Below are positions 7,858-59,668 of a stretch of 60,114 bases of DNA, one piece after another. Source of the DNA: Candidatus Avibacteroides excrementipullorum (lineage in GTDB: Bacteria > Bacteroidota > Bacteroidia > Bacteroidales > Bacteroidaceae); the NCBI GenBank assembly GCA_018711405.1, contig DVIH01000067.1, forward strand, positions 1 through 60,114. Reading direction: 5' to 3'. Position 1 is the first letter of the stretch, and each line of letters opens with the position of its first letter. The position numbers and the translations under genes were made by a program. The notes below the pieces were generated by a model. The model saw only the letters and a program-made list of their open reading frames with translations, was not told the origin of the DNA and did not search any database.

Positions 7858-7945
7858 GACCGAGCCGATCCCTGACAAAGATGGCGTACATACCCGCCAA
7901 AGATGGCGCACATCTCCGGCCGAGACCGAGCCGATCCCGACCGGA
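7858..7945. repeat. 22-bp-period mosaic array 1 (word order A B B A)
   Basis: 13-bp words at 7858, 7880, 7902, 7924 (gaccgagccgatc, gatggcgtacata, gatggcgcacatc, gaccgagccgatc) separated by 9-bp spacers. Confidence 0.9.
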
Positions 7946-7962
7946 GATGAAAAAGCACAAGA

Positions 7963-9900
7963 TTACACCTTATTTATATATAGAGATGCAGGAACCACCC
8001 TGCCAACGCGACTGATATAATCATACAAATCGCCGTAAAACCTGTTTTTGCCGAGAGTGACGGAATTGCCCACGATGATAAGTTTGGCTCTTGCCCTCGT
8101 CATGGCCACATTGGCACGGCGCACATCGGAGAGGAAACCCACGCTTCCGGCTTCGTTGTCTCTGACCATGCTCAGGATAATGACATCGCGCTCCTGACCC
8201 TGAAACCCGTCAACGGAGTTGACTGTCACGAGTTTGCGCAGGCGCTTATGAAAAGCGCACCGGGTTATCATCCCCCGCAACAGACCCACCTGCGATTTAT
8301 AGGGAGAGATGATGCCGAAATCTATCCTCTCGTCCACAATCCTGTCCACCCCTATCCTGTCCACATAAACGGCCATGACATCGAGCAGCAGCTGCGCCTC
8401 CTGCCTGTTCATCTTGCTTTCCGTCCACCGGTTGACTTCTTCGTCAAAATCGCAACCGGCAGTATCGACCCACACCATAGGCGTGTCATACTGCAACACT
8501 GTGCGGGAAGCCACATCGGGAGCTGCAACCAGACGCCCGCCATAGAACCTTTCGGACGAAAAGCGCATAATGTCTTCATGCATGCGATATTGCACGGTGA
8601 GCATTTCCACGCACGACGGCTTTTCGTGCGCCAGCATCTCCATAAGCGTAACACTCAAACCATCGCGAGCAGCCTCCATGCACTTCACCGTAGGGGGCAA
8701 CTGCTGATGATCGCCTGCAAATATCACCCTCCCCGCCTTGACAATGGCGCACCAGCATGACGGCTGCATGGCCTGTGCTGCCTCATCTATGAAAAGAGTG
8801 GAAAAGAAACGCCCGGTCATGACCTTTGACGCCGCTCCGGTGAGCGTTGAAGCGACGACCATCGCGCAGTCAAACAGGCTGTTGTCTATGCGTATCTCCA
8901 GCTCTACAGCCCTTTCGCGCAGACGGCTCAGACGATTGCGCACGGCTTCTTTTTCGGAACGCGACAAATTGCGGCGCGACAAGCATTCCCGTATGCCTTT
9001 GCGTATGCTCCACAGCTCCGGATAGTCGGGATGGCTCTCATATCTGCGCTCGTAGGTATGGGCCAGAAGCCTGTCGGTGACACGCATGGGATTGCCGATG
9101 CGCATCAACGGTATGCCCCTGTCGAGCAACTGCTCGGCAATCCAATCGACTGCGGCATTGCTCTGTGCGCATACCAGCACCTGCGGCTCGCGCTTTATGG
9201 TCTCGCAAATGGCTTCTACCAGAGTGGTTGTCTTGCCCGTGCCGGGAGGTCCGTGCACTATGGCCACATCGCGGGCGCGGATTATCTTGTTGACCGCAGC
9301 TTCCTGGCTTGCATTGAGCCACGGGAAACCGATCGGACGTTCCTGCCGGAAAGCTGGCATTTCACTGCCGAGAATGACATCACGCAAGTGCATAAGCGTT
9401 TTGGAAGATGTACTAAGGACTGTGTCGAGAGCGTCAAACATGAGGTTGAACGAGGCGGCATCAAACGCCACCTGCATGCCAAGACACCCGGAAAGCGACA
9501 TCTCGCGGAGTTCCGACAAGTCTTTCTCATCAGACAATGCCACGACACATCTAAGCCCGTCGGTCAGGCACACATTAGCCTGAATTTTCAGGAAATGAGG
9601 TTCCGACACGTCAGAGTCTTGCCTCGATGCCACGAAAAACACGACAGGCTTGCCGGGTTCAAACTCATGCTCATCGACACGGGCAGGCGACAGTTCGGAC
9701 AGGCTAATCTCCACGCAAAGCCGCCCAAAAGCATTATAACGGCTTGAGCCACACGCCACAGGATACCAGCAACGCCCCTGCCCCATGAGCCTAAGCACAC
9801 CTTTCGTCTTTGCCTTCACCTCATATTCGGAACGTTCATACTCATATTCCTTGCGGAGCAGCTCCTGCTGTTTTCTCAACTGCAATATGACCGATTTCAT
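7963..9900 (-). CDS. Superfamily 1 (UPF1/IGHMBP2-like) DNA/RNA helicase
   Basis: Walker [67 protein letters not shown]. Start at 9900 ([12 protein letters not shown]) preferred over ORF-track 9990, which runs through a terminator-like hairpin. Confidence 0.92.
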
Positions 9901-9956
9901 CAAACAACAAAAAAAGGGAGGTGTGTCGTAAATTTTAGAGGTTCTGACACGCCTAA

Positions 9957-9995
9957 AGGGGCTGTGCCAAAATTTACCATTTTGACACAACCCCT
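9957..9995 (-). terminator. Intrinsic terminator-like hairpin downstream of the mmd operon
   Basis: aggggctgtgccaaaat/attttgacacaacccct inverted repeat, followed by a second hairpin (9920-9953) and T-run on the minus strand. Confidence 0.7.
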
Positions 9996-10023
9996 CGTCA
10001 TATTAATTACAGATAACTGATTA

Positions 10024-11184
10024 TCAGATAAGGAAGCCGAGCAATACACCTGCCGCGACAGCCGAACCTATCACGCCTGCCACGTTAGGCCCCATAGCAT
10101 GCATGAGCAGATAATTGGTCGGGTCATATTCCAGACCTACAATCTGAGATATGCGTGCAGAGTCGGGCACAGCCGAAACACCGGCATTTCCGATAAGCGG
10201 ATTGATCTTGTTGTCTTTCTTAAGGAAAAGGTTGAAGAACTTCACGAACAACACACCCGAAGCCGTTGCAATGATAAACGACAAGGCTCCAAGTATGAAG
10301 ATGAGAACCGAATCCTTAGTGAGAAACTGCGATGCCTGAGTGGAAGCACCCACAGTAACACCCAGCAGGATAGTTATCGTGTCGATCAAAGGCCCGCTCG
10401 CAGTATTGGCCAGACGGCGAGTCACACCGCTTTCTTTCAACAAGTTACCGAAGAAGAGCATACCCAGCAAAGGCAAGCCCGAAGGAACGAGGAAAGTAGT
10501 GAGCAAAAGTCCCATGATGGGGAAAATCACCTTTTCCGTATGAGAGACGGCTCTCGGCGGTCTCATCCTGATGAGACGCTCATGCTTGGTGGTGAGCAGA
10601 CGCATGATAGGCGGCTGTATCACCGGAACGAGCGCCATGTAAGAATAAGCCGAGACCGCAATGGCTCCCATGAGGTTGGGCGCAAGTTTTGACGACAAGA
10701 ATATCGCAGTAGGTCCGTCCGCACCTCCGATAATGCCTATGGCACCGGCCTGGTTTGGCTCAAATCCCATGTGAAGCGCAATCATATACGCTCCGAAGAT
10801 GCCAAACTGTGCAGCCGCTCCGATGAGCATCAGTTTCGGATTGGATATCAGTGCCGAAAAGTCTGTCATGGCTCCTATGCCAAGAAATATCAATGGCGGA
10901 TACCATCCGGAGGTTACGCCCTGATACAGGATGTTCAGCACAGAGCCCTCCTCGTAGACACCTATCTGCAACCCTGCCTCAAGATTGAACGGAATGTTGC
11001 CGATAAGAATACCGAATCCGATAGGAATCAGCAACATAGGCTCGAATTCTTTAGCAACGGCAAGATATATGAAAAACAATCCCACCAGAATCATTATCAG
11101 GTGTCCGCTCGTAGCATTGGCGAAACCTGTATAATCCCAAAAGGTGATCATGTTTTCTTTCAACATTCCAAGAAATTCACTCAT
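10024..11184 (-). CDS. mmdB: Sodium ion-translocating decarboxylase beta subunit (OadB/MmdB/GcdB family)
   Basis: 386 aa; GADGPTAIFLSSKLAPNL, polytopic; last gene of mmd-like cluster. Confidence 0.93.
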   Translation of the reverse strand: MSEFLGMLKENMITFWDYTGFANATSGHLIMILVGLFFIYLAVAKEFEPMLLIPIGFGILIGNIPFNLEAGLQIGVYEEGSVLNILYQGVTSGWYPPLIFLGIGAMTDFSALISNPKLMLIGAAAQFGIFGAYMIALHMGFEPNQAGAIGIIGGADGPTAIFLSSKLAPNLMGAIAVSAYSYMALVPVIQPPIMRLLTTKHERLIRMRPPRAVSHTEKVIFPIMGLLLTTFLVPSGLPLLGMLFFGNLLKESGVTRRLANTASGPLIDTITILLGVTVGASTQASQFLTKDSVLIFILGALSFIIATASGVLFVKFFNLFLKKDNKINPLIGNAGVSAVPDSARISQIVGLEYDPTNYLLMHAMGPNVAGVIGSAVAAGVLLGFLI

Positions 11185-11194
11185 AATCCTGCTT

Positions 11195-11644
11195 TTATTC
11201 GATTACTACAAGATCGGTTCCTTCAAGAACAGAATCCCCTTGTTTTACGTTAACCGCAGTTATCGTACCGTCTTTATCTGCATTGATATTGTTTTCCATC
11301 TTCATGGCTTCGAGGACAACGACAGTCTGACCTCTCTTGACAGCATCGCCCACTTTGACTTTCACGTCAAGAATAACTCCGGGCAGCGGAGATTTTACAC
11401 CGCTCTTCTTTCCGCCTCCGGCAGCAGGAGCTGTCTGAGCAGCCGGAGCGGCAGCAGGCGCACTTGCCGGAGCGGCAGCAGGTTTTGCAACTGGTTTCAC
11501 CACAGGAGCAGCAGCTTTGACGGATTTTTCCATTTCAATTTTATATGGCACTCCGTTCACTTCAACCTGAGCGACATTATCCACTATATCAGAAATAACG
11601 ACAGTATAAGGATTACCGTTTATTTTATATTTATATTCTTTCAT
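11195..11644 (-). CDS. mmdC: Biotin carboxyl carrier subunit (MmdC-like)
   Basis: From MKEYKYKINGNPYTV; Pro/Ala linker then VKVGDAVKRGQTVVVLEAMKMENNINADKDG biotinyl motif. Confidence 0.92.
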   Translation of the reverse strand: MKEYKYKINGNPYTVVISDIVDNVAQVEVNGVPYKIEMEKSVKAAAPVVKPVAKPAAAPASAPAAAPAAQTAPAAGGGKKSGVKSPLPGVILDVKVKVGDAVKRGQTVVVLEAMKMENNINADKDGTITAVNVKQGDSVLEGTDLVVIE

Positions 11645-11667
11645 TGTGTTTTTTACTTTATTTGGGT

Positions 11668-11859
11668 TTAACGTTTCGGAATTTGACGCATCATCAGAAG
11701 TTTCAGCCCCCACGAAGAGGCAGTCTTGCTGTTTTTAAATGTCAATACATTAGATTCAATGTCGTGAAATTCGTTCAACTTCTCATGCAAAGCCATAGTT
11801 ATAGCGGCTGCGACTTCATCTGCAAGCGTTGTTCCGTTTTTTTTGTTTTGCTTTTTCAT
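11668..11859 (-). CDS. mmdE: Small protein resembling decarboxylase epsilon subunit (MmdE-like)
   Basis: 63 aa; paralogous to C-terminus of upstream OadG-like protein (EVAAAITMALHEKLNEFHDIESNVLTFKNSK...LLMMRQIPK vs EVYAAIGLALHEMQNEVHDVEETVLTIERTK...LYMMREVPN); 4-nt overlap with it. Confidence 0.75.
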   Translation of the reverse strand: MKKQNKKNGTTLADEVAAAITMALHEKLNEFHDIESNVLTFKNSKTASSWGLKLLMMRQIPKR

Positions 11860-12785
11860 CTTGTTGGTTTTTTAACGTTGGGTACCTCGCGCATCATATA
11901 AAGCTTGGAGTTCCATGGAGAATATCTGCGTTTCGTCCGCTCGATAGTAAGGACTGTCTCCTCCACATCGTGCACTTCATTTTGCATTTCATGAAGCGCC
12001 AGACCGATTGCAGCATAAACCTCACTCGATGTCTTGACAAATTCTTTAGCGCCGGCCTTGTCGCCCGGAGCAAGATGTCCGCTTTTGACAGCTCTGTTCT
12101 TGGAGACCTTCATGGCTATGACGCCGATAGCCTTGAATCCCAGAAACAACAATATCAGGCCTACAAAAACGACAGCCATCGCTGTGATAGACATTCCCAC
12201 GCCATGCTTGTCGTGCATTTTGAAACCTTCTATCTTTTCGTTTCTGTCAATCGTAATATTATTCGTGCTCGGGGTGACATAAGAATCTCCTATTCCATCT
12301 TTCACTTCCCAGCCTTCAGCTCCATCGGCTATACGGGCATACGACTGATCTGCTTTAAGCGTATTTGCGGGAATGGTCACAGAGTCAATCAATGTTTTCC
12401 CGTTTGAGTCGAACAAGGCTATAGTATTGTCTTTAGTCGGATCGAGTGTAAAGTTTATATGGAATGTACCGCGATTGGGGTTTCCGTCAGCCCAAAACAA
12501 GGCATGCTGACGAGGTTTTATCTTCGTCAGGACATCCACCTTCGGAATCGGATACATCGTGGGGTTGCTCAAATCATTGGTAAGGAAACATCCTTTCAGA
12601 TCGACAGACGCATACGATGTATTGAAGATCTCAATCCATGCGCTATGCACGCCATAATCGTCCTGGAAGTTTGTTTCATTGATTATAAGCACCTCATTGA
12701 TGCGCAATGCCGTCGCATTTTGGGCGCGCGCGCCCAAAACCGACAACACCGTCATTAATAATAATGCAATTTTTCTCACATTCAT
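11856..12785 (-). CDS. mmdD: Lamin-tail-domain / OadG-type decarboxylase membrane subunit (MmdD-like)
   Basis: 309 aa; signal peptide, LRINEVLIINETNFQDDYGVHSAWIEIFNTS...LKGCFLTND (LTD-like), single TM (MAVVFVGLILLFLGFKAIGV), MmdD-like C-terminus. Confidence 0.85.
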   Translation of the reverse strand: MNVRKIALLLMTVLSVLGARAQNATALRINEVLIINETNFQDDYGVHSAWIEIFNTSYASVDLKGCFLTNDLSNPTMYPIPKVDVLTKIKPRQHALFWADGNPNRGTFHINFTLDPTKDNTIALFDSNGKTLIDSVTIPANTLKADQSYARIADGAEGWEVKDGIGDSYVTPSTNNITIDRNEKIEGFKMHDKHGVGMSITAMAVVFVGLILLFLGFKAIGVIAMKVSKNRAVKSGHLAPGDKAGAKEFVKTSSEVYAAIGLALHEMQNEVHDVEETVLTIERTKRRYSPWNSKLYMMREVPNVKKPTR

Positions 12786-12801
12786 AATCTACAACTTGAT
12801 A

Positions 12802-14355
12802 TTACAGTGGAATATTACCGTGCTTCTTAGCCGGGTTCATCAGTTTCTTTGTCTGCAATTGTTGTAGTGCGCGTATAATACGGAAACGAGTATTGCGCGG
12901 CTCGATAACGTCATCTATGTAACCGTATTTAGCCGCATTGTAAGGATTAGCGAACAGTTTTGTGTATTCTGCTTCTTTCTCTGCGATAAATGCTTTCGGA
13001 TCGGCTGCTTCTTTCGCCTCTTTAGCATAAAGCACTGCCACTGCACCCGATGCGCCCATCACCGCGATTTCAGCCGTAGGCCATGCATAGTTCATATCGC
13101 CACGCAACTGCTTGCAGCTCATCACGATATGCGAACCGCCGTAAGACTTGCGCAATGTCACTGTAATCTTTGGCACAGTAGCTTCGCCGTAAGCATAAAG
13201 AAGTTTTGCACCATGCAGAATCACTCCGTTGTACTCCTGTCCAGTACCCGGCAAGAATCCCGGCACATCGACCAAAGTCACAAGAGGAATATTGAAGGCA
13301 TCGCAGAAGCGTACGAAACGTGCGCCTTTACGCGAAGCGTTGCTGTCGAGCACACCGGCCATAACCTGCGGCTGGTTGGCAACGACACCCACAGACTGCC
13401 CGTTGAAACGTGCGAAACCTATTATTATGTTCCTTGCATAGTCTCTCTGTACTTCCAGGAACTCTCCGTTATCAACGATGGCACCTATAACCTCGTACAT
13501 GTTGTACGGACGGTTGGGGTCATCAGGGATTATTTCATTCAAAGAATCTTCCAGACGGTCGATCGGGTCATTGCATTCCACCAATGGAGCTTCTTCCAAG
13601 TTATTCTGCGGGATGTAGCTCAACAGTTTTCTGATGATTGCAAGAGCCTCTTCCTCAGTAGAAGCGGTGAAGTGTGTCACGCCCGATTTTGACGAGTGTA
13701 CGCTTGCGCCTCCGAGTTCTTCAGCAGTCACATCTTCTCCGATAACGGTCTTTACCACTTTCGGACCGGTGAGGAACATATATGAAGTGCCTTCCATCAT
13801 AAGAGTGAAGTCGGTCAAAGCCGGAGAATACACAGCACCGCCGGCACAAGGACCGAAGATACCGGAAATCTGCGGGATGACGCCTGAAGCCATGATATTG
13901 CGCTGGAATATTTCCGAATATCCGGCCAAAGCATTGATACCTTCCTGGATACGTGCTCCACCCGAGTCGTTCAGACCGATACAGGGAGCGCCGTTTTTCA
14001 TGGCCATATCCATGACTTTGCATATTTTCAAAGCCATAGTTTCAGACAACGAACCTCCGAACACTGTGAAGTCTTGTGCGAACACATAAACGAGCCTTCC
14101 GTCTATCGTACCGTAACCGGTTACGACACCATCACCGAGAAAAGTTTTCTTTTCCTGGCCGAAGTTCGTACATCTGTGTTTCACAAACATGTCAAGTTCC
14201 TCGAAACTTCCTTCGTCAAGCAACATGGCAATACGTTCACGAGCCGTATATTTACCTTTTTCATGCTGTTTTGCGATAGCTTTCTCACCGCCGCCAAGCC
14301 TTGCCTGCACGCGGAGGTCTATCAACTCTTTAACTCTTTCAAGCTGGTTACTCAT
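12802..14355 (-). CDS. mmdA: Acyl-CoA carboxylase/decarboxylase carboxyltransferase subunit (methylmalonyl-CoA decarboxylase alpha)
   Basis: 517 aa; carboxyltransferase family ([53 protein letters not shown]). Confidence 0.95.
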
Positions 14356-14385
14356 TCTTTTCTATGTTTTTGGTTCGTTATTCCA

Positions 14386-14790
14386 TTATTTCTCACAAAG
14401 TTCCGTCAATACGCCCTGTGTGGATTTCGGGTGCAGGAACGCGATGTTAAGGCCTTCCGCGCCTTTTCTCGGAGCCTTGTCTATCAGTCTGATGCCTTTC
14501 GATTCAGCAAAGGCAAGAGCGTTGGCCACTCCGTCTTCTATAGCGAAAGCCATGTGATGTATGCCTTCACCCCTCTTTTCGATGTATTTGGCTATGGTGC
14601 TCTCTTCGCTTGTCGGCTCGAGCAATTCGAGTTTGGTGTCGCCCACTTTCAGGAAAGCTGTCTTCACTTTCTGATCTTCTACCACTTCGATGTTATAGCA
14701 TTTCAGGCCTAACACCTCTTCATAATACGGGAGGGCTGCTTCTATACTCTTTACAGCAATGCCCAGATGTTCAATGTGTGAAATTTTCAT
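14386..14790 (-). CDS. mce: Methylmalonyl-CoA epimerase
   Basis: From MKISHIEHLGIAVKSIEAALPYYEEVLGL; glyoxalase-fold, GIHHMAFAIEDG. Confidence 0.95.
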   Translation of the reverse strand: MKISHIEHLGIAVKSIEAALPYYEEVLGLKCYNIEVVEDQKVKTAFLKVGDTKLELLEPTSEESTIAKYIEKRGEGIHHMAFAIEDGVANALAFAESKGIRLIDKAPRKGAEGLNIAFLHPKSTQGVLTELCEK

Positions 14791-15003
14791 TTTATATAAA
14801 ATTTTATATCGTGAACTTATAAATATATCTATGCCGTTCGGACATAAGTCGGTACAAATAAAATCATTTCTATCCAAAAGACGAAATTTTTCTTATTCTA
14901 TTTTAATCGCATGTCTCATGCCGCCCGCTAATTTAAAGTCAAATTAACTAATATAGACAACATTTTGTCAGAAATGCTAAGCATAGTTTGAAAAAAGAGA
15001 AAA

Positions 15004-15030
15004 CGGCGGCATGGTTGCCCGATGCCGCCG
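15004..15030 (-). terminator. Terminator-like hairpin downstream of OadA-like gene
   Basis: cggcggcat ggttgcccg atgccgccg inverted repeat. Confidence 0.7.
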
Positions 15031-15052
15031 CTCCACTCATCTTTTTTGCTCC

Positions 15053-16825
15053 TTAAGCCTTATCTTCTTTTTTGATATAAGCAATGACATCGCCTTTGTT
15101 CACGGTATCTCCCTGCTTAGCGCAGATCTCCGTGATTTTGCCCTCAAATTCGGCAAACACTTCGCGGTGCTCTCCCCACATGGTAGTGATGTAGCAGAAG
15201 TGCTGTCCCTCCTTGATGTGCTGTCCCAGAGCAGGAGCCTGCGATGCGTCTACCACATCGATTTCCCAAAGTATCTGTCCTTTCACAGGAGCAGTGACAG
15301 GATCGCAGCCGGCTCTCTTGACCTTGAGTATCTCCTCTTCGTTGAATCCGCTCTTGGCCAGTTCGGCATCTTTAGCCCTCTGCAAGTCGGTTTCAAACCT
15401 CTGCTTAGCCACGCCCGACTTGTAGTCGCGATACTGACGGTCGTGCATTGCGAGTTCAAACAACTCTTCATCGTCATCGCCGTATTCCCATCCGTTCTCG
15501 TCCATTTCTTTCCTGTACTGGTCGAGCTGGTCGGGATATTCGTCCTGCGGGTTTCCAGTGTAGAATTCCAGTCCTTTCTCCTTGGCCAGTTCTATGATTT
15601 CAGGAGCAAGCTCACCGGGCAGTTTGCCGCTCTTGCCGAGTATCATGCCCCAAGTGTTATTGTCTATCATGCTGTAGCGCGGTTCGCCTTTGGCAAGGCA
15701 AAGCACATTCATCAACGCCACATTCTTCACGTACTGGCTGAAAGGAGTCACCAACGGCGGATAACCGAGTTTCGGCCACACGTAAGCCACTTCGTCAAAC
15801 AGTTTCACAAGCAGGTCGTCTATGGTAAGTTCCGGCTCGCCCTTGCTCTTCAATATCATGTTGATGCCCGAATGCACGCCTTTCAGGTCGGCCATCATGG
15901 ATCCCATCATACCGCCCGGCAGTCCGCATCCCAGCAGCAGCGATGATGTGAACTTGTTGCTCGGGTCAATGAAGTATCCCAAGAAATCATCTATAAACGA
16001 CTGTGTGAGCGATCTCGCTTTCATGTATGCATTCATGTTAATTTCAGGCACTTTGAAGCCTGCGTCTTTCAGCATGGCCTGCACCGAAATCACGTCAGGA
16101 TGCACCTTGCCCCACGACAGCGGCTCCATAGCCACGTCTATGATGTCGGCTCCGTTTTCGCACACTTCGAGGATGGAAGCCATGGAAAGTCCTGGGCCGG
16201 AATGTCCGTGATACTGTATCAGCACTTCCGGATGTTTCTTCTTTATTGACTTCACGAGCTTGCCCAAGAACACCGGACGACCTATTCCCGCCATATCCTT
16301 AAGACAGATTTCGGGAGCGCCCGCCTCTATGAGCTGGTCGGCTATGTTGGAATAGTATTCCACCGTATGCACCGGTGAGAATGTGATGCAGAGCGTAGCC
16401 TGAGGAATCATCCCTGCTTCGTTGGCATATTTGATGGAAGGAATGATGTTTCTCACGTCATTCAGACCGCAGAATATTCTCGTAATGTCAACCCCCTGAG
16501 CTTTCTTCACCTTGTACATCAACCTCCGTACATCGGCAGGCACAGGATACATCCTCAAGGCATTCAAGCCTCTGTCGAGCATGTGCGTCTGTATGCCGGC
16601 TTCGTTGAAAGGTTTCGTAAACGCGCGCACCGCCTTGTTAGGGTTTTCCCCGTAAAGCAGGTTCACCTGTTCAAAAGCGCCGCCATTGGTCTCCACACGA
16701 GCGAAGCAACCCATATCGACTATGACAGGAGCTATTTTCACCAATTGATCCACGCGGGGCTGATATTTCCCCGAAGACTGCCACATGTCACGGTAGACAA
16801 GGCTGAATTTAATTTCCTTTTTCAT
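15053..16825 (-). CDS. OadA/pyruvate carboxylase subunit B-like carboxyltransferase with degenerate biotinyl domain
   Basis: 590 aa; LVYRDMWQSSGKYQPRVDQ, HGHSGPGLSMASILEVCENGADIID; C-terminal biotinyl-like domain lacks the (A)MKM motif. Confidence 0.88.
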   Translation of the reverse strand: MKKEIKFSLVYRDMWQSSGKYQPRVDQLVKIAPVIVDMGCFARVETNGGAFEQVNLLYGENPNKAVRAFTKPFNEAGIQTHMLDRGLNALRMYPVPADVRRLMYKVKKAQGVDITRIFCGLNDVRNIIPSIKYANEAGMIPQATLCITFSPVHTVEYYSNIADQLIEAGAPEICLKDMAGIGRPVFLGKLVKSIKKKHPEVLIQYHGHSGPGLSMASILEVCENGADIIDVAMEPLSWGKVHPDVISVQAMLKDAGFKVPEINMNAYMKARSLTQSFIDDFLGYFIDPSNKFTSSLLLGCGLPGGMMGSMMADLKGVHSGINMILKSKGEPELTIDDLLVKLFDEVAYVWPKLGYPPLVTPFSQYVKNVALMNVLCLAKGEPRYSMIDNNTWGMILGKSGKLPGELAPEIIELAKEKGLEFYTGNPQDEYPDQLDQYRKEMDENGWEYGDDDEELFELAMHDRQYRDYKSGVAKQRFETDLQRAKDAELAKSGFNEEEILKVKRAGCDPVTAPVKGQILWEIDVVDASQAPALGQHIKEGQHFCYITTMWGEHREVFAEFEGKITEICAKQGDTVNKGDVIAYIKKEDKA

Positions 16826-16992
16826 ATCTTCATTTTTTCTAAAAAGAGGTTCTGAACTTTTATTACGGGCAAATATAATAATTCACCCGATATATAACCC
16901 ATTTCGGCAAAACAAAATAAGGAATTTTTTCCTCAATTTCAGCACTGACGGGCAAACTGAGGCCTGGAGACTGCCGAAGACTATGCCAATTG

Positions 16993-18032: not shown

Positions 18033-18072
18033 AATGTAGTTTTTAATCAAATTTTATGATTATAACTTGTCT

Positions 18073-26146: not shown

Positions 26147-26234
26147 GATGTACGCCATCTTCGCCCGGGATCGAGCCGGTCATCCGCCAAGACCGAGCCG
26201 ATCATCGCCAGGGATGGCGCACATCCCGGACGGA
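26147..26234. repeat. 22-bp-period mosaic array 2 (word order b a A B; lower case = reverse)
   Basis: Words at 26147, 26169, 26191, 26213 (gatgtacgccatc, gatcgagccggtc, gaccgagccgatc, gatggcgcacatc). Confidence 0.9.
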
Positions 26235-26297: not shown

Positions 26298-26471
26298 CAG
26301 CAGGAAAACGAATGTGGAAAGATTTGAACAGCTTGCAACCACACAAAAAAATGCTAAACAGTACACCCCCACACACCTGTCTGTCATTTTTTTCAAGTCG
26401 CACGCAAGATGTCACAAAGAAAGCCGCACTCAGTTTCCCCGTTTTTTACTAATCAATAAAACAAAAAAGAA

Positions 26472-27764
26472 ATGGGATATTTATTCACATCCGAATCGGT
26501 GTCGGAAGGACACCCCGACAAGGTGGCCGATCAGATATCGGACGCCGTACTTGACAAACTGCTGGCATACGACCCGAGTTCTAAAGTAGCATGCGAAACA
26601 TTGGTGACCACCGGACAGGTGATAGTCGCCGGAGAAGTGAAAACCAAAGCCTACATTGACCTGCAGCGCGTGGCACGCGAGGTAATCAACCGCATAGGCT
26701 ACACCAAGAGCGAATACATGTTTGAAGGCAACTCGTGCGGAGTACTCTCGGCCATACACGAGCAAAGCCCCGACATAAACAGGGGAGTGGAACGCGAAGA
26801 CCCTATGGAACAGGGAGCCGGAGACCAGGGCATGATGTTCGGCTACGCCACAAACGAGACGAAAAACTATATGCCGCTGCCGCTCTACCTGGCACACAGG
26901 CTGCTCATGACGCTGGCCGAAATACGCCGCGAGGGAAAACAGATGACCTACCTGCGCCCCGACTCGAAAAGCCAGGTGACGATAGAATATGACGACAACC
27001 GCCGCCCGGTGAGAATAGACACCATAGTGATATCCACCCAGCACGATGACTTCATCAGGCCTGCCGGCCCGTCGGAAGAGGCTCGGCTCGAAGCTGACAG
27101 GCAGATGCTGGAACAGATACGCCGGGACGTGACGGAGATACTCATCCCGCGCGTGAAAGCCGAGTTAGGCGACGAGAAGATACTCGCCCTGTTTGACGGC
27201 AGCACCAGATACCATGTCAACCCCACAGGCAAATTCGTGATAGGAGGCCCGCACGGCGACACGGGGCTGACCGGGCGGAAAATCATAGTCGACACCTACG
27301 GCGGGGCAGGAGCGCACGGCGGAGGAGCATTCTCGGGCAAAGACCCGAGCAAAGTGGACCGCAGCGCGGCATACGCGGCACGCCACATAGCCAAAAACCT
27401 CGTTGCGGCAGGAGTGGCCGACGAGATGCTGGTGCAGGTGTCATACGCCATAGGAGTGGCCGCACCTATCAATATATATGTGAACACCTACGGACGCAGC
27501 CATGTGGACATGACCGACGGGGAGATAGCCGAAAAAATAGGACAACTGTTTGACATGCGCCCGCACGCCATAGAGCAGAGGCTGAAACTGCGCAATCCCA
27601 TATACAGCGAAACAGCTGCCTACGGACACATGGGACGCGAGCCGAAAACGGTGACGAAACACTTCGAGTCGGCATACGAGGGCAACAAGGACGTGACAGT
27701 GGAACTCTTCACTTGGGAGAAACTCGACTACACGGACAAGGTGAAAGAGGCTTTCGGACTGTAA
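26472..27764 (+). CDS. metK: S-adenosylmethionine synthetase
   Basis: 430 aa; [44 protein letters not shown]. Confidence 0.98.
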
Positions 27765-35622: not shown

Positions 35623-35732
35623 GATCGGCTCGGTATCGGGCTGAGATGTGCGCCATCTTCCCCAAGTATGTGCGCCATCTTTGCCCGGGATGGCGTATAT
35701 CCCGGGAGGAGACCAAGCCGGCCTCTCACCGA
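35623..35732. repeat. 22-bp-period mosaic array 3 (word order a b b B A)
   Basis: Five words at 35623, 35645, 35667, 35689, 35711 with 9-bp spacers; largest array. Confidence 0.9.
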
Positions 35733-49535: not shown

Positions 49536-49589
49536 CAGCGACATTACGGAAAAGTTGCGTTTTGTAATCCTCATCGGAAGGCGATATAT

Positions 49590-49635: not shown

Positions 49636-49662
49636 TTCATCCCCTAAAAAAGAAAAGACATT

Positions 49663-51018
49663 ATGAAAGAACTCGACTTGACAAAAGGCAGTGTGCCAAA
49701 AGTGCTGATGCAGTTTGCCATGCCCTACCTGCTTGCCAATGTGCTTCAGGCATTGTACGGCGGAGCCGACCTCTTCGTGGTGGGACGATTCGACGATGCC
49801 GCGAGCGTGGCGGGAGTAGCCATAGGCAGCCAGGTGATGCAGACCGTGACAGGCATAATCTTGGGACTGACCGCAGGCATCACCGTGCTCATAGGCATAG
49901 CCACAGGCGCACGCGATGAGAAGAAAGCAGCAGCCACCATCGGTTCGGCTGTGTGGCTGTTTGCCATCATCGGAGCAGTGCTGACGCTGCTCATGACCGT
50001 ATGGCACGACACCATCGCCACAGCCATGCACACCCCGCCCGAAGCCATGACCGACACCCGCTACTACCTGCTCATCTGCTCGCTGGGCATACCGTTCATA
50101 ATAGGCTACAATGTGGTGTTCGGCATCATGCGCGGTCTGGGCGACTCACGCTCGCCGCTCTACTTCGTGGCTCTGGCTTGCGTCATCAACATCGTGCTCG
50201 ACTTCGTGCTGGTGGGCGGCTGCCACATGAGAGCCGCCGGAGCAGCCACAGCCACGATAGCATCGCAAGGCATCAGCTTCGCCGCCGCACTGTGCTATCT
50301 GCACCGCAAGGGATTCCGCTTCCCGTTCACAAGGCGAGACATCAGGCTCAACGGCATCCTGTCAAAACGAATCATAAAACTCGGCACACCCATAGCGCTG
50401 CAAGATGCGCTGATAAACATATCTTTCCTCATCATCACGGTCATAGTCAACCGCATGGGCGTCACGGCATCAGCCGCACTCGGAGTGGTGGAAAAACTCA
50501 TAGTCTTTGCCATGCTGCCGCCGGTGGCCATATCGTCGGCAGTGGCCGCCATGACAGCGCAAAACTACGGCGCAGGACTCACCGACCGCATGAACCGCTG
50601 CCTTAAGTCGGGCATAGGCATGGCTCTCGTGTTCGGCACGGCTTTCTGCATATATTCCCAGTTCCTGCCCGAAACCCTGATGGGCATATTCACAAACGAT
50701 GCCCCCGTCATAGAGCTGGGGGCCGAATACCTGCACGGCTACAGCATAGACTGCATCATAGTGAGCTTCGTGTTCTGCATCAACTCTTATTTCAGCGGGC
50801 AGGGCAACTCGCTGTTCCCCATGGTGCACAGCCTCATCGCCACATTCCTTTTTCGCATACCCCTGTCGTGGATTTTCAGTCACATCGCCCCGACATCCCT
50901 TTTCCCAATGGGATTCGCGCCTCCGCTTGCCACGATGGTTTCGCTCGCTATCTGTCTGTGGTACTTGAAGATATGGCAGAAACGGCAGGCTTCTTCCGGC
51001 ATACGGGCGGAATGCTGA
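49663..51018 (+). CDS. MATE family efflux transporter
   Basis: 451 aa; polytopic, LTKGSVPKVLMQFAMPYLLANVLQALYGGADLFVVGRF. Confidence 0.96.
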   Translation: MKELDLTKGSVPKVLMQFAMPYLLANVLQALYGGADLFVVGRFDDAASVAGVAIGSQVMQTVTGIILGLTAGITVLIGIATGARDEKKAAATIGSAVWLFAIIGAVLTLLMTVWHDTIATAMHTPPEAMTDTRYYLLICSLGIPFIIGYNVVFGIMRGLGDSRSPLYFVALACVINIVLDFVLVGGCHMRAAGAATATIASQGISFAAALCYLHRKGFRFPFTRRDIRLNGILSKRIIKLGTPIALQDALINISFLIITVIVNRMGVTASAALGVVEKLIVFAMLPPVAISSAVAAMTAQNYGAGLTDRMNRCLKSGIGMALVFGTAFCIYSQFLPETLMGIFTNDAPVIELGAEYLHGYSIDCIIVSFVFCINSYFSGQGNSLFPMVHSLIATFLFRIPLSWIFSHIAPTSLFPMGFAPPLATMVSLAICLWYLKIWQKRQASSGIRAEC

Positions 51019-51022
51019 AAAA

Positions 51023-51110
51023 GATCGGCTCGGTCTCCGGCAAAGATGTGCGCCATTCCGGGCAAAGATGGCGTACATCCCGCCCCGATACCGAGCCGAT
51101 CCCCGGCGGG
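51023..51110. repeat. 22-bp-period mosaic array 4 (word order a b B A)
   Basis: Words at 51023, 51045, 51067, 51089; begins 5 nt after MATE stop. Confidence 0.9.
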
Positions 51111-51193
51111 GGTAAAAAACGTTTTTCACAACCGCATCCGCGCACCTGTCGAAATTTGCCTTATATTTGCGCAAAAGTCATAACCAATGCCTG

Positions 51194-51895: not shown

Positions 51896-51903
51896 CGCGA
51901 CAG

Positions 51904-52308
51904 TCACCTGCCGTCAAACCGGACATCGCCGTCATCGCCTCTTGAGACAGCCACGAAGTCTACACCCTCTTTCAAAGAATAAGGCACCACGATGTCAGAA
52001 CTCCTGTCGACCACCATCAGCGTATTGTCGAGAGCAAAACGACCCACAGTCACAGTATCGCCGCCATCTTTCACCACCCCATCGAATATAAGGCTGTCGT
52101 TGAGGAACATGCTTATGCTCTCGCTCGACAGCGAACTGTCGATGGCAAAGACAAAAGCCTCCTCGCTGAAAGTCTGTCCCCTCTTCTTATCGGCATCAGC
52201 CTTCATCGACACATAGACCATAATGCCCACAATCACTATCACGGCAAACGCCAGTATGCCGTTGCCCACCATAAACTGACGGTTCGTATTCAAAGCAGAT
52301 TTTCCCAT
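51904..52308 (-). CDS. Single-TM hypothetical protein
   Basis: 134 aa; MGKSALNTNRQFMVGNGILAFAVIVIVGIMVYVSM. Confidence 0.65.
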   Translation of the reverse strand: MGKSALNTNRQFMVGNGILAFAVIVIVGIMVYVSMKADADKKRGQTFSEEAFVFAIDSSLSSESISMFLNDSLIFDGVVKDGGDTVTVGRFALDNTLMVVDRSSDIVVPYSLKEGVDFVAVSRGDDGDVRFDGR

Positions 52309-52378
52309 AAATACACATGTTTTCAGCGCAAATCTAACACTTTTCCCAAAAAGATTTTTTACATACGATAAAAATATA

Positions 52379-52386
52379 TATCTTTG
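52379..52386 (+). promoter_or_regulatory. Candidate -7 box for rimP-nusA-infB operon
   Basis: TATCTTTG followed by GCAG. Confidence 0.65.
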
Positions 52387-52449
52387 CAGATGAATTTAGG
52401 TGATTAGCGAGGGGGCGTCAAGGTCTCCTTTTTTTATTCTTACCCAAGC

Positions 52450-52917
52450 ATGATAAATAAAGACAAGGTTACCGAAATAGTCGAAGAATGGCTGTCCGGG
52501 AAAAGCTATTTCCTGGTGGATGTCAGCATAAGCAGCGATGACAAAATCATAGTGGAAATAGACGATGCCGAAGGCGTTTGGATTGAAGACTGCGTGGAGC
52601 TGAGCCGCTTCATAGAAAGCAGGCTCAACCGCGATGTGGAAGATTACGAGCTGGAAGTAGGCTCGGCCGGCATAGGACAACCGTTCAAGGTGTTGAAACA
52701 ATATTATGCACACGTGGGCTGTGAAGTGGAAACCATGACAAAGGAAGGCGTCAAACTGACCGGAATACTGAAAGACGCCAACGAGTCGGACTTCACCATG
52801 ACTGTGGAGAAAAAAGTAAAACCGGAAGGCGCCAAACGTCCCAAGATGATAGAAGAAGACATCTGCCTGAAATATGATGAAATAAAATATACGAAATACT
52901 TAATCAGCTTCAAATAA
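52450..52917 (+). CDS. rimP: Ribosome maturation factor
   Basis: 155 aa; upstream of nusA; VGSAGIGQPFKVLKQYYAHVG. Confidence 0.95.
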   Translation: MINKDKVTEIVEEWLSGKSYFLVDVSISSDDKIIVEIDDAEGVWIEDCVELSRFIESRLNRDVEDYELEVGSAGIGQPFKVLKQYYAHVGCEVETMTKEGVKLTGILKDANESDFTMTVEKKVKPEGAKRPKMIEEDICLKYDEIKYTKYLISFK

Positions 52918-54179
52918 TGGCAAAGAAAGAAGAAACCATAAGCCTTGTAGATTCGTTTTCCGAATTCAAGGAACTGAAGAACATAGACCGCACCACCATG
53001 ATAAGCGTGCTCGAAGAATCATTCCGCAGCGTCATCGCAAAGATGTTCGGCACTGATGACAATTATGACGTAGTAGTCAACCCCGACAAAGGTGACTTCG
53101 AGATATACAGAAACAGGACGGTAGTGGCCGACGACAAACTTGTGAATCCCAACATGGAAATAAAACTGTCGGACGCAATCAAAATAGACCCCTCCTACGA
53201 AATAGGAGAAGAAGTGACAGACCAAGTAAACTTCCTCTCGTTCGGCCGACGCGCCATACTGAACCTGAGACAGACACTGGCATCGAAAGTGCTGGAACTG
53301 CAAAAAGACAGCCTGTATTCCAAATATTCGGAACTCGTTGGCACCATAGTCAACGCAGAAGTATACCAGACATGGAAAAAAGAAATACTCCTGCTTGATG
53401 ACGACGGCAACGAACTGCTGCTGCCGAGGACGGAACAGATCCCGTCCGACTTCTACCACAAAGGCGAGACAGTGCGCGCGGTAGTGGCAAGGGTGGAAAA
53501 CAAGAACAACAACCCGAAAATCATACTGTCGAGAATAAGCCCCGTATTCCTGCAAAGACTCTTCGAACAGGAAGTACCCGAAATAGCCGACGGACTCATC
53601 ACCATAAAGAAAATAGCGAGAATACCGGGAGAAAGAGCCAAGATAGCAGTGGAATCATACGATGACAGAATAGATCCGGTAGGCGCATGCGTAGGCGTAA
53701 AAGGCTCGAGGATACACGGCATAGTCCGCGAATTGCGCAACGAAAACATAGACGTGATAAACTACACGTCCAACATAAAGCTCCTCATCCAAAGAGCATT
53801 GGGACCGGCCAAAGTATCGTCCATCTCCATCAACGAAGAAGAAAGGAAAGCAGAAGTATATCTTGAACCGAAAGAAGTATCGCTCGCAATAGGCAAAAAC
53901 GGAATGAACATCAAGCTCGCAAGCATGCTTACGGAATACACCATAGACGTATTCAGAGAACTCGGCAACGACGAAGACTACGAGGACGACATCTATCTGG
54001 ACGAATTCAAAGACGAGATAGACGAATGGGTCATCAATGCCATCAAATCAATAGGCATCGATACAGCCAAAGGAGTGCTCAACGCCCCGAGAGAAATGAT
54101 TATCGAAAAAGCCGACCTGGAAGAAAGCACAGTAGACGATGTACTGCGCATTCTGAAAGCTGAATTTGAAAATGAATAA
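52917..54179 (+). CDS. nusA: Transcription termination/antitermination factor NusA
   Basis: 420 aa; VGACVGVKGSRIHGIVRELRNENIDVINY, KEVSLAIGKNGMNIKLAS KH motifs. Confidence 0.98.
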   Translation: MAKKEETISLVDSFSEFKELKNIDRTTMISVLEESFRSVIAKMFGTDDNYDVVVNPDKGDFEIYRNRTVVADDKLVNPNMEIKLSDAIKIDPSYEIGEEVTDQVNFLSFGRRAILNLRQTLASKVLELQKDSLYSKYSELVGTIVNAEVYQTWKKEILLLDDDGNELLLPRTEQIPSDFYHKGETVRAVVARVENKNNNPKIILSRISPVFLQRLFEQEVPEIADGLITIKKIARIPGERAKIAVESYDDRIDPVGACVGVKGSRIHGIVRELRNENIDVINYTSNIKLLIQRALGPAKVSSISINEEERKAEVYLEPKEVSLAIGKNGMNIKLASMLTEYTIDVFRELGNDEDYEDDIYLDEFKDEIDEWVINAIKSIGIDTAKGVLNAPREMIIEKADLEESTVDDVLRILKAEFENE

Positions 54180-54293
54180 CCAGTTTTTTTGAGAATTGAC
54201 TTAAGGAAACATGGAAACATGTCAAGTCAATTCCCGAGCAAGCAGAAAAGAGAAGTTTCCGTATTTCCAATTTCAATGATCAATTAAAACAAT

Positions 54294-57263
54294 ATGAAGA
54301 TAAGACTGAGCAAAGTAATCAAAGATTTGAACGTGGGTATGTCCACAGTTGTAGAATACCTGCAAAAAAACGGTTTCGGCATAGAAGCTGACGCCAACCC
54401 CAACACGCAAATTTCAGAAGAACAATACGAAGCGTTAAGGAAAGAATTCAGCAAAGACAAAAACATAAAGAAACAGTCGGACATAATTTCATTTGAAAGA
54501 CAAAACAAAGAAAAAAACAAGAAAAGCACAGTCGCAATAGAGGGTTACGAAGAAAAACAGGACTCGAAAGAGAAAGCGGAAATGATAAAGACGGAAATCC
54601 CGAAAGAACAGATGCTGAAACTGAAACCTGTCGGCAAGATAAACCTTGACGAACACAACAACCCTATAAAAAAAGAAGAAAAGACCGGGCAAACAGCCAA
54701 AACGTCTCCGGACAATATCGGCAAAAGCAATGAGTCCAAAACCGTTGAGAAGAACGATGGGCAGGCTCAGACCGCCGAAACTCATCCGACAGAGGCTGAC
54801 AACAAGGAGACACCATCATCACAACAAACCAAGACAAACACAGTGACTGAACAAAAACAACAGGAAGACGGACAAGCAGAATCCGACAAACAGACGCGCA
54901 CGGCCGAAACCGGCGAAACGACAGAAAAAGACGTCTACAAGATACACAGTCAAGGCGGCAGCGGACTGAAACTCAACGTGGTCGGACAAATAGATCTGGA
55001 CTCTATCAACCAGTCGACAAGACCCAAAAAGAAAAGCAAAGAAGAAAAGAAAAAAGAAAGGGAAGAGAAAGACAGGTTAAAAGCGGAACAACGCAAAAAA
55101 TACAAAGAAAACAGCCCCGCGAAAGACTTCAGACCGGAAGACAAACAGTCATCAGACCAGCATGACAAGTTTGACAACGATGCCGACAAGAAAAACAAGA
55201 AAAAAAGGAACAGGATAAACAAAGAGAAGATCGACATAAACAATGTCGGCAGTTTTGTCCCACAGAAAAAAGCCAACAATGCAGGCAAGCCGCAACAACA
55301 GCAGCCGAACGAGAAAGCCGTCCCTAAACACAAAATGAAAAAACTCCCGCCAAAACCGGAAGTAAACGAAGAGGACGTAGCAAAACAGGTAAAAGAAACA
55401 CTCGCAAGACTGACATCGAAAGGCAAGAGCAAGGCCTCAAAATACAGAAAAGAAAAGAGAGAGAACGTGATGAACAAAATCCAGGAAATGGAAAGCCATG
55501 AAATGGAAGAAAGCAAAGTTCTCAAACTCACAGAATTCGTTACAGCCAACGAACTTGCAAACATGATGAACATCTCCGTCAACCAGGTCATATCCACATG
55601 CATGAGCATAGGAATAATGGTATCCATCAACCAAAGACTCGATGCGGAAACCATAAACCTCGTTGCCGAAGAGTTCGGATTCAAGACTGAATACGTAAGC
55701 GCATCGGTTGCACAAGCCGTAGCCGAAGAAGAAGACAAGGCAGAAGACCTGCAACCAAGAGCACCGATCGTAACAGTAATGGGACACGTGGATCACGGAA
55801 AGACATCGCTGCTCGACTACATCAGAAAATCGAATGTCATAGCCGGAGAGGCCGGCGGCATCACGCAGCACATAGGCGCATACAATGTCACACTCGATGA
55901 CGGCAGGAAAATAACATTCCTCGACACTCCGGGACACGAGGCATTCACGGCAATGCGTGCACGCGGAGCAAAGGTGACAGATATCGCCATCATAATAGTT
56001 GCAGCCGATGACGATGTGATGCCACAGACCAAAGAAGCCATAAACCATGCGGCAGCGGCAGGAGTGCCCATAGTGTTTGCCATAAACAAGATAGACAAAC
56101 CGCATGCCAACCCCGACAAGATAAAAGAAGCGCTTGCCAACATGAACTATCTGGTTGAAGAATGGGGAGGAAAATACCAATCGCAAGACATATCCGCAAA
56201 AAAAGGCACAGGCGTAAATGACCTGCTGGAAAAAGTCCTGCTCGAAGCCGAAATGCTCGACCTGAAAGCCAACCCCGACAGGAAAGCCACCGGTTCCATA
56301 ATAGAATCCACGCTCGACAAAGGACGGGGATATGTGGCGACAGTGCTGGTATCGAACGGAACCCTGAAAATGGGCGACATTGTTCTTGCGGGAACCAACT
56401 ACGGCAAGATAAAAGCCATGTTCAACGAGCGTAACCAAAGGATAACGCAGGCAGGCCCGTCAGAACCGGCATTGATTTTGGGACTCAACGGTGCACCGGC
56501 AGCCGGAGACACATTCCATGTGATAGAGACAGAACAGGAAGCAAGGGAGATAGCCAACAAACGCGAACAACTGCAAAGAGAGCAAGGACTCAGAACAAGA
56601 AAGATACTTACCCTCGATGAAGTGGGACGCCGCCTTGCACTCGGATCGTTCAAAGAACTCAACATCATAGTCAAGGGAGACGTAGACGGCTCTATCGAAG
56701 CACTCTCCGACTCACTCATCAAGCTCTCCACAGAGACCATACAGGTGAACGTCATACACAAGGCTGTGGGACAGATTTCAGAATCGGATGTGGCTCTCGC
56801 AACGGCATCAGATGCCATCATCATAGGTTTCCAGGTACGTCCTTCGGCAGCCGCACGCAAATTTGCCGAGCAGGAAGGCGTGGAAATAAGGCTGTACTCC
56901 ATAATATATGATGCCATAGAAGAAGTCAAGGCCGCAATGGAAGGCATGCTGGCACCAGAAGTCAAGGAACAGGTAACGTCAACCATAGAAGTCAAGGAAG
57001 TATTCCACATATCGAAAGTGGGAATGGTGGCCGGAGCAGTTGTAAAAGACGGAAAAGTGAAACGCACCGACAAAGCAAGACTTGTCAGAGACGGCATAGT
57101 GATCTATACCGGTGCGATAAACGCCTTGAAACGATTCAAAGACGACGTGAAAGAGGTTGCAGTCAACTATGAATGCGGCATAAGCCTTACAAACTGCAAC
57201 GATCTGAAAGTGGGCGACATCATAGAGACTTATGAAGAAATAGAAGTAAAGCAAACGCTATAA
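54294..57263 (+). CDS. infB: Translation initiation factor IF-2
   Basis: 989 aa; [39 protein letters not shown], long charged N-terminal region. Confidence 0.98.
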
Positions 57264-57287
57264 CAGGAAACAAAACCCTGATATCAT

Positions 57288-57331
57288 AAAAAAGGCACGT
57301 CCGCTGCAAAGTTCCGGACGTGCCTTTTTAT
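57288..57331. terminator. Bidirectional intrinsic terminator between infB and HAD-like gene
   Basis: AAAAAAGGCACGTCCG ... CGGACGTGCCTTTTT. Confidence 0.9.
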
Positions 57332-57348
57332 TTCTTCGGGCATCGGAA

Positions 57349-57756
57349 TCACCTCTGCCACCACTTTTTCTTCTTCTCACGGGCAGGCTCCGTGCCGCAT
57401 ACGTCATACCACGACAACTTCTCGTTTATCATCCTGTAGATAATCCCCCAGTCGGGCAGCCCTCCCAGGTTCTTGTCGTCTATAAAGACATCGGCATTTA
57501 TCTTTCGGGTAAAATCAGAGTTGCCATGCTTTTCTTCCTGATAATTGCCGTTGACAGCATAAAACTCCACTCCCCTTTTCCGGCAATACTCCACAGCTTC
57601 ATCCAACAGCTTGCCTTCCCTCACCGTCCACAGCACAAGCCTGTGCCTGTCTTCTATAAGTTTCTTCAGCGTCTCTATGGCAAAAGGGACCTCCCTGCCT
57701 ATCTCCGGATACCTGTGTTCCACTATCGTCCCGTCGAAATCTACAGCTATGACCAT
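57349..57756 (-). CDS. HAD-like hydrolase (BT0820-type)
   Basis: 135 aa; MVIAVDFDGTIVEHRYPEIG, DVFIDDKNLGGLPDWG. Confidence 0.88.
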   Translation of the reverse strand: MVIAVDFDGTIVEHRYPEIGREVPFAIETLKKLIEDRHRLVLWTVREGKLLDEAVEYCRKRGVEFYAVNGNYQEEKHGNSDFTRKINADVFIDDKNLGGLPDWGIIYRMINEKLSWYDVCGTEPAREKKKKWWQR

Positions 57757-57782
57757 ATTGAAAATCTGATTACATTATTGCA

Positions 57783-59099
57783 TTACTCTATTCCTATCCC
57801 TTTATATTCAAAGCCCATGCCGAGCAACTCCGACGGCACATAAATGTTACGCCCGTCAATGACCAGCCTCCTCCTCATGGTTTCCTTGAGCAACGGCCAA
57901 GAGGGAAGCCTGAACATCTTCCACTCAGTCAGCACCAGCAAAGCATCGGCTCCGTCTACGGCATCATACATGTCTTTCGCGTATGTCACAGCATCTCCCA
58001 GCCTGCGCCTGCATTCCTGCATGGCCACAGGGTCATACACCTTGACAGTGCATCCCGCCTTTCTCAAAAGGTCTATCGTGACCAGCGATGCCGCCTCGCG
58101 CATGTCGTCTGTCTCAGGCTTGAAAGCAAGCCCCCACAAGGCGATAACCTTTCCGGCAAGATTGCCATCGAAAGCCTTTTCCAGCTTCTTGAATACCACC
58201 GACTTCTGGTTCTCATTGACCGCCTCCACAGCCCTGAGCACTTTCATGTCATAGCCATGCTTCTCGGCTGTCTTGACCAAAGCCTTTACGTCTTTAGGGA
58301 AACAACTGCCTCCATATCCGCAGCCGGGATAAAGGAATTTGGTGCCGATGCGCGTATCGGAACCTATCCCGAGCCTCACCATATTTATATCGGCACCGAC
58401 CAGTTCGCAAAGATTGGCGATGTCGTTCATGAAACTAATCCTTGTGGCAAGCATAGAGTTGGCCGCATATTTTATCATCTCGGCGGAAGGTATATCGGTG
58501 AATATCACACGCAGATTGTTCAGCAGAAACGGCCTGTAGAGCCTTGTCATCAGTTCCTTCGCCCTGTCGGTCTCCACACCCACAATCACCCTGTCGGGAC
58601 TCATGAAATCCTTCACTGCATTGCCCTCTTTCAGGAACTCCGGATTGGAAGCCACATCAAACGGTATGTCCACACCGCGCTTGTCCAGCTCCTCCTGCAC
58701 AATCTTTTTCACAAGCCCGGCAGTGCCGACGGGCACAGTCGATTTCGTCACAATCATCAGATACCTGTTCATGTAGTGGCCCACCGTGCGCGCCACGTCC
58801 ATCACATAACTCAGGTCGGCGCTGCCGTCCTCATCGGGCGGCGTACCCACCGCACTGAACACCATTTCCACATCATTGATGCATTCGCGTATGTCGGTAG
58901 TGAATTTCAGCCGCCCGTCCTTATAGTTTCTCACCACAATCTCTTCCAATCCGGGTTCATAGATAGGTATCGTCCCGTTCCTGAGATTTTCTATTTTCCG
59001 CGCATCTATATCCACGCATGTCACATTCACACCCATTTCCGCGAAACATGCACCGGAAACAAGTCCCACATACCCGGTGCCGACTATAGCTATATTCAT
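57783..59099 (-). CDS. ugd: UDP-glucose 6-dehydrogenase
   Basis: 438 aa; MNIAIVGTGYVGLVSGACFAEMG, GYGGSCFPKDVKAL. Confidence 0.96.
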   Translation of the reverse strand: MNIAIVGTGYVGLVSGACFAEMGVNVTCVDIDARKIENLRNGTIPIYEPGLEEIVVRNYKDGRLKFTTDIRECINDVEMVFSAVGTPPDEDGSADLSYVMDVARTVGHYMNRYLMIVTKSTVPVGTAGLVKKIVQEELDKRGVDIPFDVASNPEFLKEGNAVKDFMSPDRVIVGVETDRAKELMTRLYRPFLLNNLRVIFTDIPSAEMIKYAANSMLATRISFMNDIANLCELVGADINMVRLGIGSDTRIGTKFLYPGCGYGGSCFPKDVKALVKTAEKHGYDMKVLRAVEAVNENQKSVVFKKLEKAFDGNLAGKVIALWGLAFKPETDDMREAASLVTIDLLRKAGCTVKVYDPVAMQECRRRLGDAVTYAKDMYDAVDGADALLVLTEWKMFRLPSWPLLKETMRRRLVIDGRNIYVPSELLGMGFEYKGIGIE

Positions 59100-59105
59100 A
59101 AACGA

Positions 59106-59450
59106 TTATCTGCTAAAATTAAATATATGAACAAGTCGCAAAGATAACACAAGCAAACGATAGTATGAATGATTGAACAATTTAAAATCTTCCGACTCTG
59201 CATTCTTTTCGGCTGCGGAAAGAATCCCTCTGTCCTCTATCTGCTTCTTGTATTTCTCAAGTCCGTACAAACCGGGCCTTATCTTGCACATGCCTTTAGC
59301 CTGCTGCACTATCCGGCGAATGCTTGCAAACGGAGTTTTCGTATTCCATTTGCAATCTTTTATCTTGAAAACTTCCCCGTTCAGCTCACCCAAAGTTGCA
59401 ACTCCGCCAAGTCTCTCCAACGTCTCGATAACTGCTTCATACTGTTTCAT
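59106..59450 (-). pseudogene. Probable N-terminal fragment of winged-helix/HARE-HTH-like protein
   Basis: 114 aa; MKQYEAVIETLERLGGVATLGELNGEVFKIKDCKWNTKTPFASIRRIVQQAKGMCKIRPGLYGLE...FNHSYYRLLVL then unrelated short tail. Confidence 0.5.
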
Positions 59451-59580
59451 GAAATTTCAAAATTTATCATCCGAAAGGCAAATATAATAAAAAATCCCTC
59501 CGCACGGCAAACGCCATGCAGCAGAGGAAAAGCCGCACCGGCAAATGCTTCACATACGGCACGACACAAACCCTGAAAAG

Positions 59581-59668
59581 GATGTGCGCCATCTTCGCCC
59601 GGGATGTACGCCATCCTTGCCGGGGATCGGCTCGATCATGACCGAAGACCGAGCCGATCCCCGGCGGC
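59581..59668. repeat. 22-bp-period mosaic array 5 (word order b b a A)
   Basis: Words at 59581, 59603, 59625, 59647 (gatgtgcgccatc, gatgtacgccatc, gatcggctcgatc, gaccgagccgatc). Confidence 0.9.

Follow-up and report, generated by a model that had tools for sequence, protein, structure and literature searches.

The window, by which the whole analysed stretch of 60,114 nt is meant, carries five short repeat arrays adding up to 21 units, with the unit starts lying exactly 22 bp apart (Table 1), and the positions, period and unit total given in the initial annotation were all confirmed. The second array lies some 80 bp ahead of a SAM-II riboswitch and the fourth 4 bp downstream of a MatE-family gene, and no Rfam family was matched at the window arrays. 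The units are made of two words, A (GACCGAGCCGATC) and B (GATGGCGYACATC), with lower case letters denoting the reverse orientation, and the orders ABBA, abBA and bbaA stand as they had been read earlier. The order previously given as baAB is really bAAB, the unit GATCGAGCCGGTC of array 2 showing 2 mismatches to A as opposed to 3 to a, and the fifth unit of abbBA in array 3 (GACCAAGCCGGCC) is degenerate, with 3 mismatches, so that this array can also be counted as four good units. The 9-bp stretches between the words, which had been described as related spacers, are indeed related, but they are not separate elements and form part of one lattice, in which GA, a 9-mer, TC and another 9-mer follow each other (GA-N9-TC-N9-GA); a half-site therefore starts every 11 bp, with alternating orientation. 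Scored as four units, the five window loci attain 18-20 of 20, whereas the highest value among 200 first-order Markov windows of equal length is 6.

Table 1. Repeat arrays, end boxes and neighbouring features in the window
Feature	Position	Strand	Description
Array 1	7858..7936	n/a	four units A-B-B-A at 7858, 7880, 7902, 7924; convergent gene gap
Array 2	26147..26225	n/a	four units b-A-A-B at 26147, 26169, 26191, 26213; divergent gene gap
SAM-II riboswitch	26308-26366		5' of the S-adenosylmethionine synthetase gene; adjoins array 2
S-adenosylmethionine synthetase gene	26472-27764		
Array 3	35623..35723	n/a	a-b-b-B at 35623, 35645, 35667, 35689, plus degenerate fifth A unit at 35711
T-type end box, array 4	51016..51022	n/a	TGAAAAA on + (outward TTTTTCA); one of the genome-wide end-box classes
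Array 4	51023..51101	n/a	four units a-b-B-A at 51023, 51045, 51067, 51089
G-type end box, array 4	51102..51112	n/a	CCCGGCGGGGG; one of the genome-wide end-box classes
Array 5	59581..59659	n/a	four units b-b-a-A at 59581, 59603, 59625, 59647; tRNA-Glu gene downstream
tRNA-Glu	59858-59930		
Second tRNA	60049-60114		cut by the window end

The five loci belong to a dispersed, intergenic mosaic family of the same genome (2.198 Mb in 140 contigs, 88% complete), as had been proposed, and the genome-wide word search suggested at the time extends it well beyond them: the A-word pattern gives 399/413 matches as against 13/19 for the reversed control, and a word-free lattice of three units gives 136 matches as against 0. 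In the 682 kb of contigs sampled there are 71 arrays, which by proportion corresponds to approximately 230 genome-wide. All 71 score at least 17/20, with nothing between 9 and 17, and no partial or decayed array was found among them. After trimming of weak end units, 63/71 have exactly four units and 8/71 have five, and this near-fixed number together with the lack of partial arrays leaves the earlier idea of growth by module unsupported. Consistent with the previous statement that the arrays are not ORFs, 68 of the 69 with gene context are intergenic, while one overlaps a predicted gene; in the classified set 32 lie in tandem, 22 in divergent and 13 in convergent gaps, with no preference among these contexts. 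The ends of the arrays carry boxes of two unlike types, a G-type (CCSGGCGGGGG) and a T-type (TTTTTC).

The end words have a fixed orientation, the opening word being reversed in 90% of the 71 arrays and the closing word forward in 87%. The number of A words per array is underdispersed (variance 0.47 vs 0.96; 0 of 20000 permutations) and the arrays mix the two words, AABB compositions occurring 20 times with 8.6 expected, BBBB once with 7.2 expected and AAAA not at all with 2.6 expected. Half-sites are paired A/A or B/B within a word, A/B never being seen, and a word almost always joins two different half-sites, namely GAYCGA with GATCGG and GATGTR with GATGGC. In a second genome of the same genus (G002, CALULY010000001.1), there are 75 pairings of CAAAA with CAGAA half-sites as opposed to 3 of CAGAA with itself (P=8e-9); with the half-sites being heterotypic in both genomes, perfect palindromes are thus avoided. 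The unit orders number 37 among the 71 arrays, which is equal to random assortment, and the arrays are therefore not copies of a few masters.

The arrays also keep a minimum distance from each other. With the same number of arrays placed randomly in those intergenic gaps of the same contigs that measure at least 110 bp, 16.3 intervals below 4 kb are expected (minimum 7 in 5000 simulations), as opposed to 0/50 observed, and the interval CV is 0.42 as opposed to 0.81 simulated. A 4-kb hard-core exclusion alone gives a CV of 0.51 (P=0.03 for the remainder), so that the exclusion zone is to be regarded as the main spacing effect. In G002, the same test gives 0 intervals below 5 kb with 5.5 expected (P=0.00075). 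Arrays are sparser in G052, a member of another genus, and in Bacteroides pyogenes; seven G052 arrays within 400 kb are spaced 19-51 kb apart, longer gaps also occur there, and since the G052 intervals range from 19 kb to >160 kb, strong regularity is seen only in the present genome and in G002.

The same layout is reused by relatives with unrelated words. In G002 and in G004, which is also of the same genus, the words follow CARAASTTYTG, and the arrays, of four units spaced at 21 bp, are bounded by AAAGT end boxes that resemble terminal inverted repeats (AAAGT...ACTTT), and the pattern of these ends, which gives one match per array end, is matched 123 times in G002, 100 times in G004 and 0 times in the control, from which about 120 and about 100 arrays are estimated; four units are present in 26/29 G002 arrays. 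In G052 the words are GAAYRKSMYRTTC, arranged in arrays of four units with a 22-bp period, in G137 the arrays also comprise four units and their words vary from locus to locus, and Bacteroides pyogenes DSM 19673 has 22-bp arrays of TTTCCCNNNNGGGAAA, mostly with four units (86/79 matches vs 0 in the control). Across the present genome and its relatives, the period of the four-unit arrays is 21 or 22 bp throughout; longer arrays of 6-8 units occur in some genera (G125, G117). Among 80 named Bacteroidaceae loci, repeat lags of 22 (12 cases) and 44 (8 cases) are prominent. The A and B words themselves had no match in the named genomes searched, among which records of the present genome may not have been included, nor in the phages, viral contigs or plasmids searched, and a G002 array used as query gave one weak plasmid match. 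A third word set within the genus is found in G001, where an array at L127:9188 consists of the 22-bp direct units AGCATACGACCATAGGCATGAT. In G118, there are 64 matches to the reversed control lattice AG-N9-CT, which suggests arrays with other boundary dinucleotides.

Among the shared genes fetched, protein identity is 90% between G002 and G004 and 61-64% between either of them and the present genome. For three G002 arrays, all of the gene sides with an array (4/4) are also array-bearing in G004 (Fisher P=3e-4), and two further loci, examined singly, share the array position. At these shared positions the flanking intergenic DNA is mostly unalignable, the words differ and one array is inverted; the shuffling that had been suggested earlier is thereby found between species at conserved positions, though much of it may be drift between equivalent half-sites. 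Between the present genome and G002 or G004, array positions are not conserved (1/9 and 0/7), and individual positions are therefore dispensable over longer times. In close species, then, positions persist while words change, and between distant ones positions and words are both replaced. For one G004 array there is no counterpart in G002, and this only pair of empty and occupied sites displays no clear target duplication, its flanks being too diverged to show one. Opposite a G004 array, G002 carries at C2 113560-113799 (within L293) a 28-bp near-perfect palindrome, GTGGAGACGCGATTAATCGCGTCTCTAC, which is REP-like. A synteny break between the two genomes lies inside an array, in that the two flanks of one G002 array locus map to separate contigs of G004, in both cases next to an array (L189, L193). 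Arrays also break assemblies, several G004 contigs beginning within them.

In the model that we favour, tentatively and at a little less than an even chance, the arrays would serve as assembly sites of fixed size for a putative oligomeric DNA-binding protein, and possibly as landmarks of chromosome architecture. Eight half-sites of ~11 bp in alternating orientation would form four asymmetric dimer sites, lying along one face of the DNA at intervals of two helical turns and closed by the end boxes, which would allow the protein to occupy or wrap the array of ~90-110 bp, with the arrays being kept in intergenic DNA and a minimum distance apart. The two-turn phasing, the fixed number of sites, the grammar and the lack of decayed copies speak for an assembly that is bound and under selection, and the context-neutral placement together with the exclusion argues for a role at the scale of the chromosome and not of the gene; intergenic placement and minimum distance suit architectural landmarks better than gene-by-gene regulators. 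Of the same-face protein binding proposed in the initial annotation, the two-turn lattice is borne out, while the binding, like oligomerisation and the architectural role, is our inference. As the words change between species, the partner would either have to evolve its specificity fast or have to recognise the periodicity and not the sequence. The model is weakened by the full replacement of words at ~200 sites, which is hard to envisage for a co-evolving binder, by the loss of positions at 61-64% protein identity, by the sparser spacing in G052 and B. pyogenes and by the longer arrays of G125 and G117. It can be extended, speculatively and with more doubt than confidence, to a class of landmarks of the Bacteroidaceae, a four-dimer, one-face lattice with enforced spacing whose sequence is rewritten while its architecture is kept, and by which a putative fast-evolving or sequence-indifferent oligomer would organise the nucleoid.

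The strongest competing model, possible but in our view rather unlikely, takes the arrays for a non-autonomous, MITE-like mobile repeat, in which a transposase would bind the four sites, target immunity would create the exclusion zone and recombination between copies would homogenise the words. The minimum distance expected of a MITE with target immunity is indeed found, and is sharp, in two species with unrelated words (4 kb in the present genome, 5 kb in G002), and the model also accommodates the species-specific words, the turnover of words as well as positions in distant congeners, the TIR-like end boxes of G002, the G004 array missing in G002 and the synteny break that falls in an array. 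Under this model, however, copies should share a common order and insertions should be accompanied by target duplications, and neither was seen in the genomes compared; the copies are unlike each other, as is evident from their 37 orders, no subfamily with common flanks was observed and there are no decayed copies. The repeat is moreover absent from the phages and viral contigs searched, with the one weak plasmid match mentioned above, and no master element was identified. Ends of the Tn7 and Mu type (TnsB/MuA) comprise several ~22-bp protein sites each, and their target immunity gives spacing; the arrays differ from them in the alternating orientation of the sites, in their random order and in the lack of an attached transposase gene.

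It is improbable that the arrays represent a neutral satellite-like DNA kept uniform by recombination, in which recombination between neighbouring arrays would purge close pairs via deletion or inversion of the intervening DNA. This would account for the species-specific words, the synteny break at an array and the exclusion zone without any function, and the 4-kb hard core covers most of the regularity, but the fixed four units, the end orientation, the balance of A and B and the absence of decayed arrays would be left unexplained. An element acting as a nucleic-acid hairpin, be it a terminator, a stabiliser of mRNA ends, a cruciform or an sRNA, is very improbable: the single-strand folding of 6/8 arrays is better than that of shuffled sequences (z about -2.7 to -7), but that of 2/8 is not (ABBA, z -1.7; bbAA, z +0.6), complementary word pairs are at chance level (58 arrays vs 55.7), half-sites are preferentially mismatched with perfect palindromes avoided, and arrays occur in divergent gaps (22) as well as in convergent ones (13).

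Lrp/AsnC operators, in which DNA is wrapped round an octamer by way of four dimer sites of 13-17 bp two turns apart, are a close geometric match (PMC2995911, PMC10201364), and the present genome has two Lrp-like genes. The arrays do show clustered 13-17 bp semipalindromes at two-turn spacing, but the specificity does not track the words: the recognition region is near-identical (VSRAAIHQRVQ-) in the present genome, G002, G004, G003, G137 and G052 despite unrelated words, and the explanation was rejected for this reason. G001, furthermore, gave no Lrp match and the context-free placement is not operator-like, which leaves this explanation with very little credibility. The second Lrp-like gene (L176, G000 C2:1275-1460) lies ~350 bp from an array and is not among the G002-G004 matches. 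A terminator, promoter or operator is disfavoured by the occurrence of arrays in all three kinds of gene gap without preference. CRISPR loci have near-identical repeats, unique ~30-bp spacers and cas genes, and the arrays, as had been stated before, are not of this type, their spacers being only 9 bp long and related to each other and their words mixed. An origin from phage, virus or plasmid was rejected for lack of matches to the A and B words in the sequences searched.

A search of the open literature, subscription journals lying outside it, returned no description of such arrays, and the nearest described elements are REP/BIME sequences (PMC3733652, PMC2817692) and the repeats of Porphyromonas gingivalis (PMC4596501). 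REPs are defined as palindromes tagged with GTAG or CGTC at one end (PMC3733652), and BIMEs have been discussed as sites bound by several proteins (PMC2817692). Like these, the arrays are dispersed in hundreds, mostly intergenic, and built from near-palindromic units that may face either way and follow one another in a mosaic. They differ in that neither units nor end boxes carry the GTAG/CGTC tag, and in their fixed four-unit 22-bp lattice, their mismatched halves in place of stable hairpins and their exclusion spacing. Y1/RAYT transposases (PF01797) were not found in the present genome (at 88% completeness), G001-G004 or G052, with positive controls being matched, so that the earlier suggestion of a REP-like element with a co-occurring RAYT is not supported. 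CGTC REPs have been described without a transposase. The BrickBuilt MITE and the 22-, 23- and 41-nt repeats of P. gingivalis resemble the arrays in belonging to Bacteroidales, in units of ~22 nt, in being intergenic and in being limited to a species, but BrickBuilt consists of identical 23-nt direct repeats in variable copy number, with a leader and tail bearing terminal inverted repeats, at 19 loci (PMC4596501). Klein et al. mention 22-nt tandem repeats in strain W83 without giving locations (PMC4596501); repeats of this kind, to which the initial annotation had pointed, may be related to the arrays. Chromosomes are also organised by short, dispersed near-palindromic sites such as those of MatP-matS and parS, which are single and conserved, unlike the four-site arrays with their species-specific words.

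The evidence points either to a DNA-protein landmark that has not been described before or to a mobile repeat that senses its own spacing. Were the arrays bound by one oligomer, a major family of gut bacteria would possess a dispersed element for organising the nucleoid, with a layout that is conserved and a sequence that is rapidly replaced, much as in centromeric satellites; were the arrays mobile, their spacing would make target immunity visible as a genome-wide ruler. Since the type strain of Bacteroides pyogenes has arrays, a cultured species is available for testing either reading. On contig C1 of G052 (L105-L124) there is another dispersed repeat, ATCGCAAAGCGATGTCCCTAC, with ~15 copies in 400 kb; it is palindromic and its end is the complement of GTAG.
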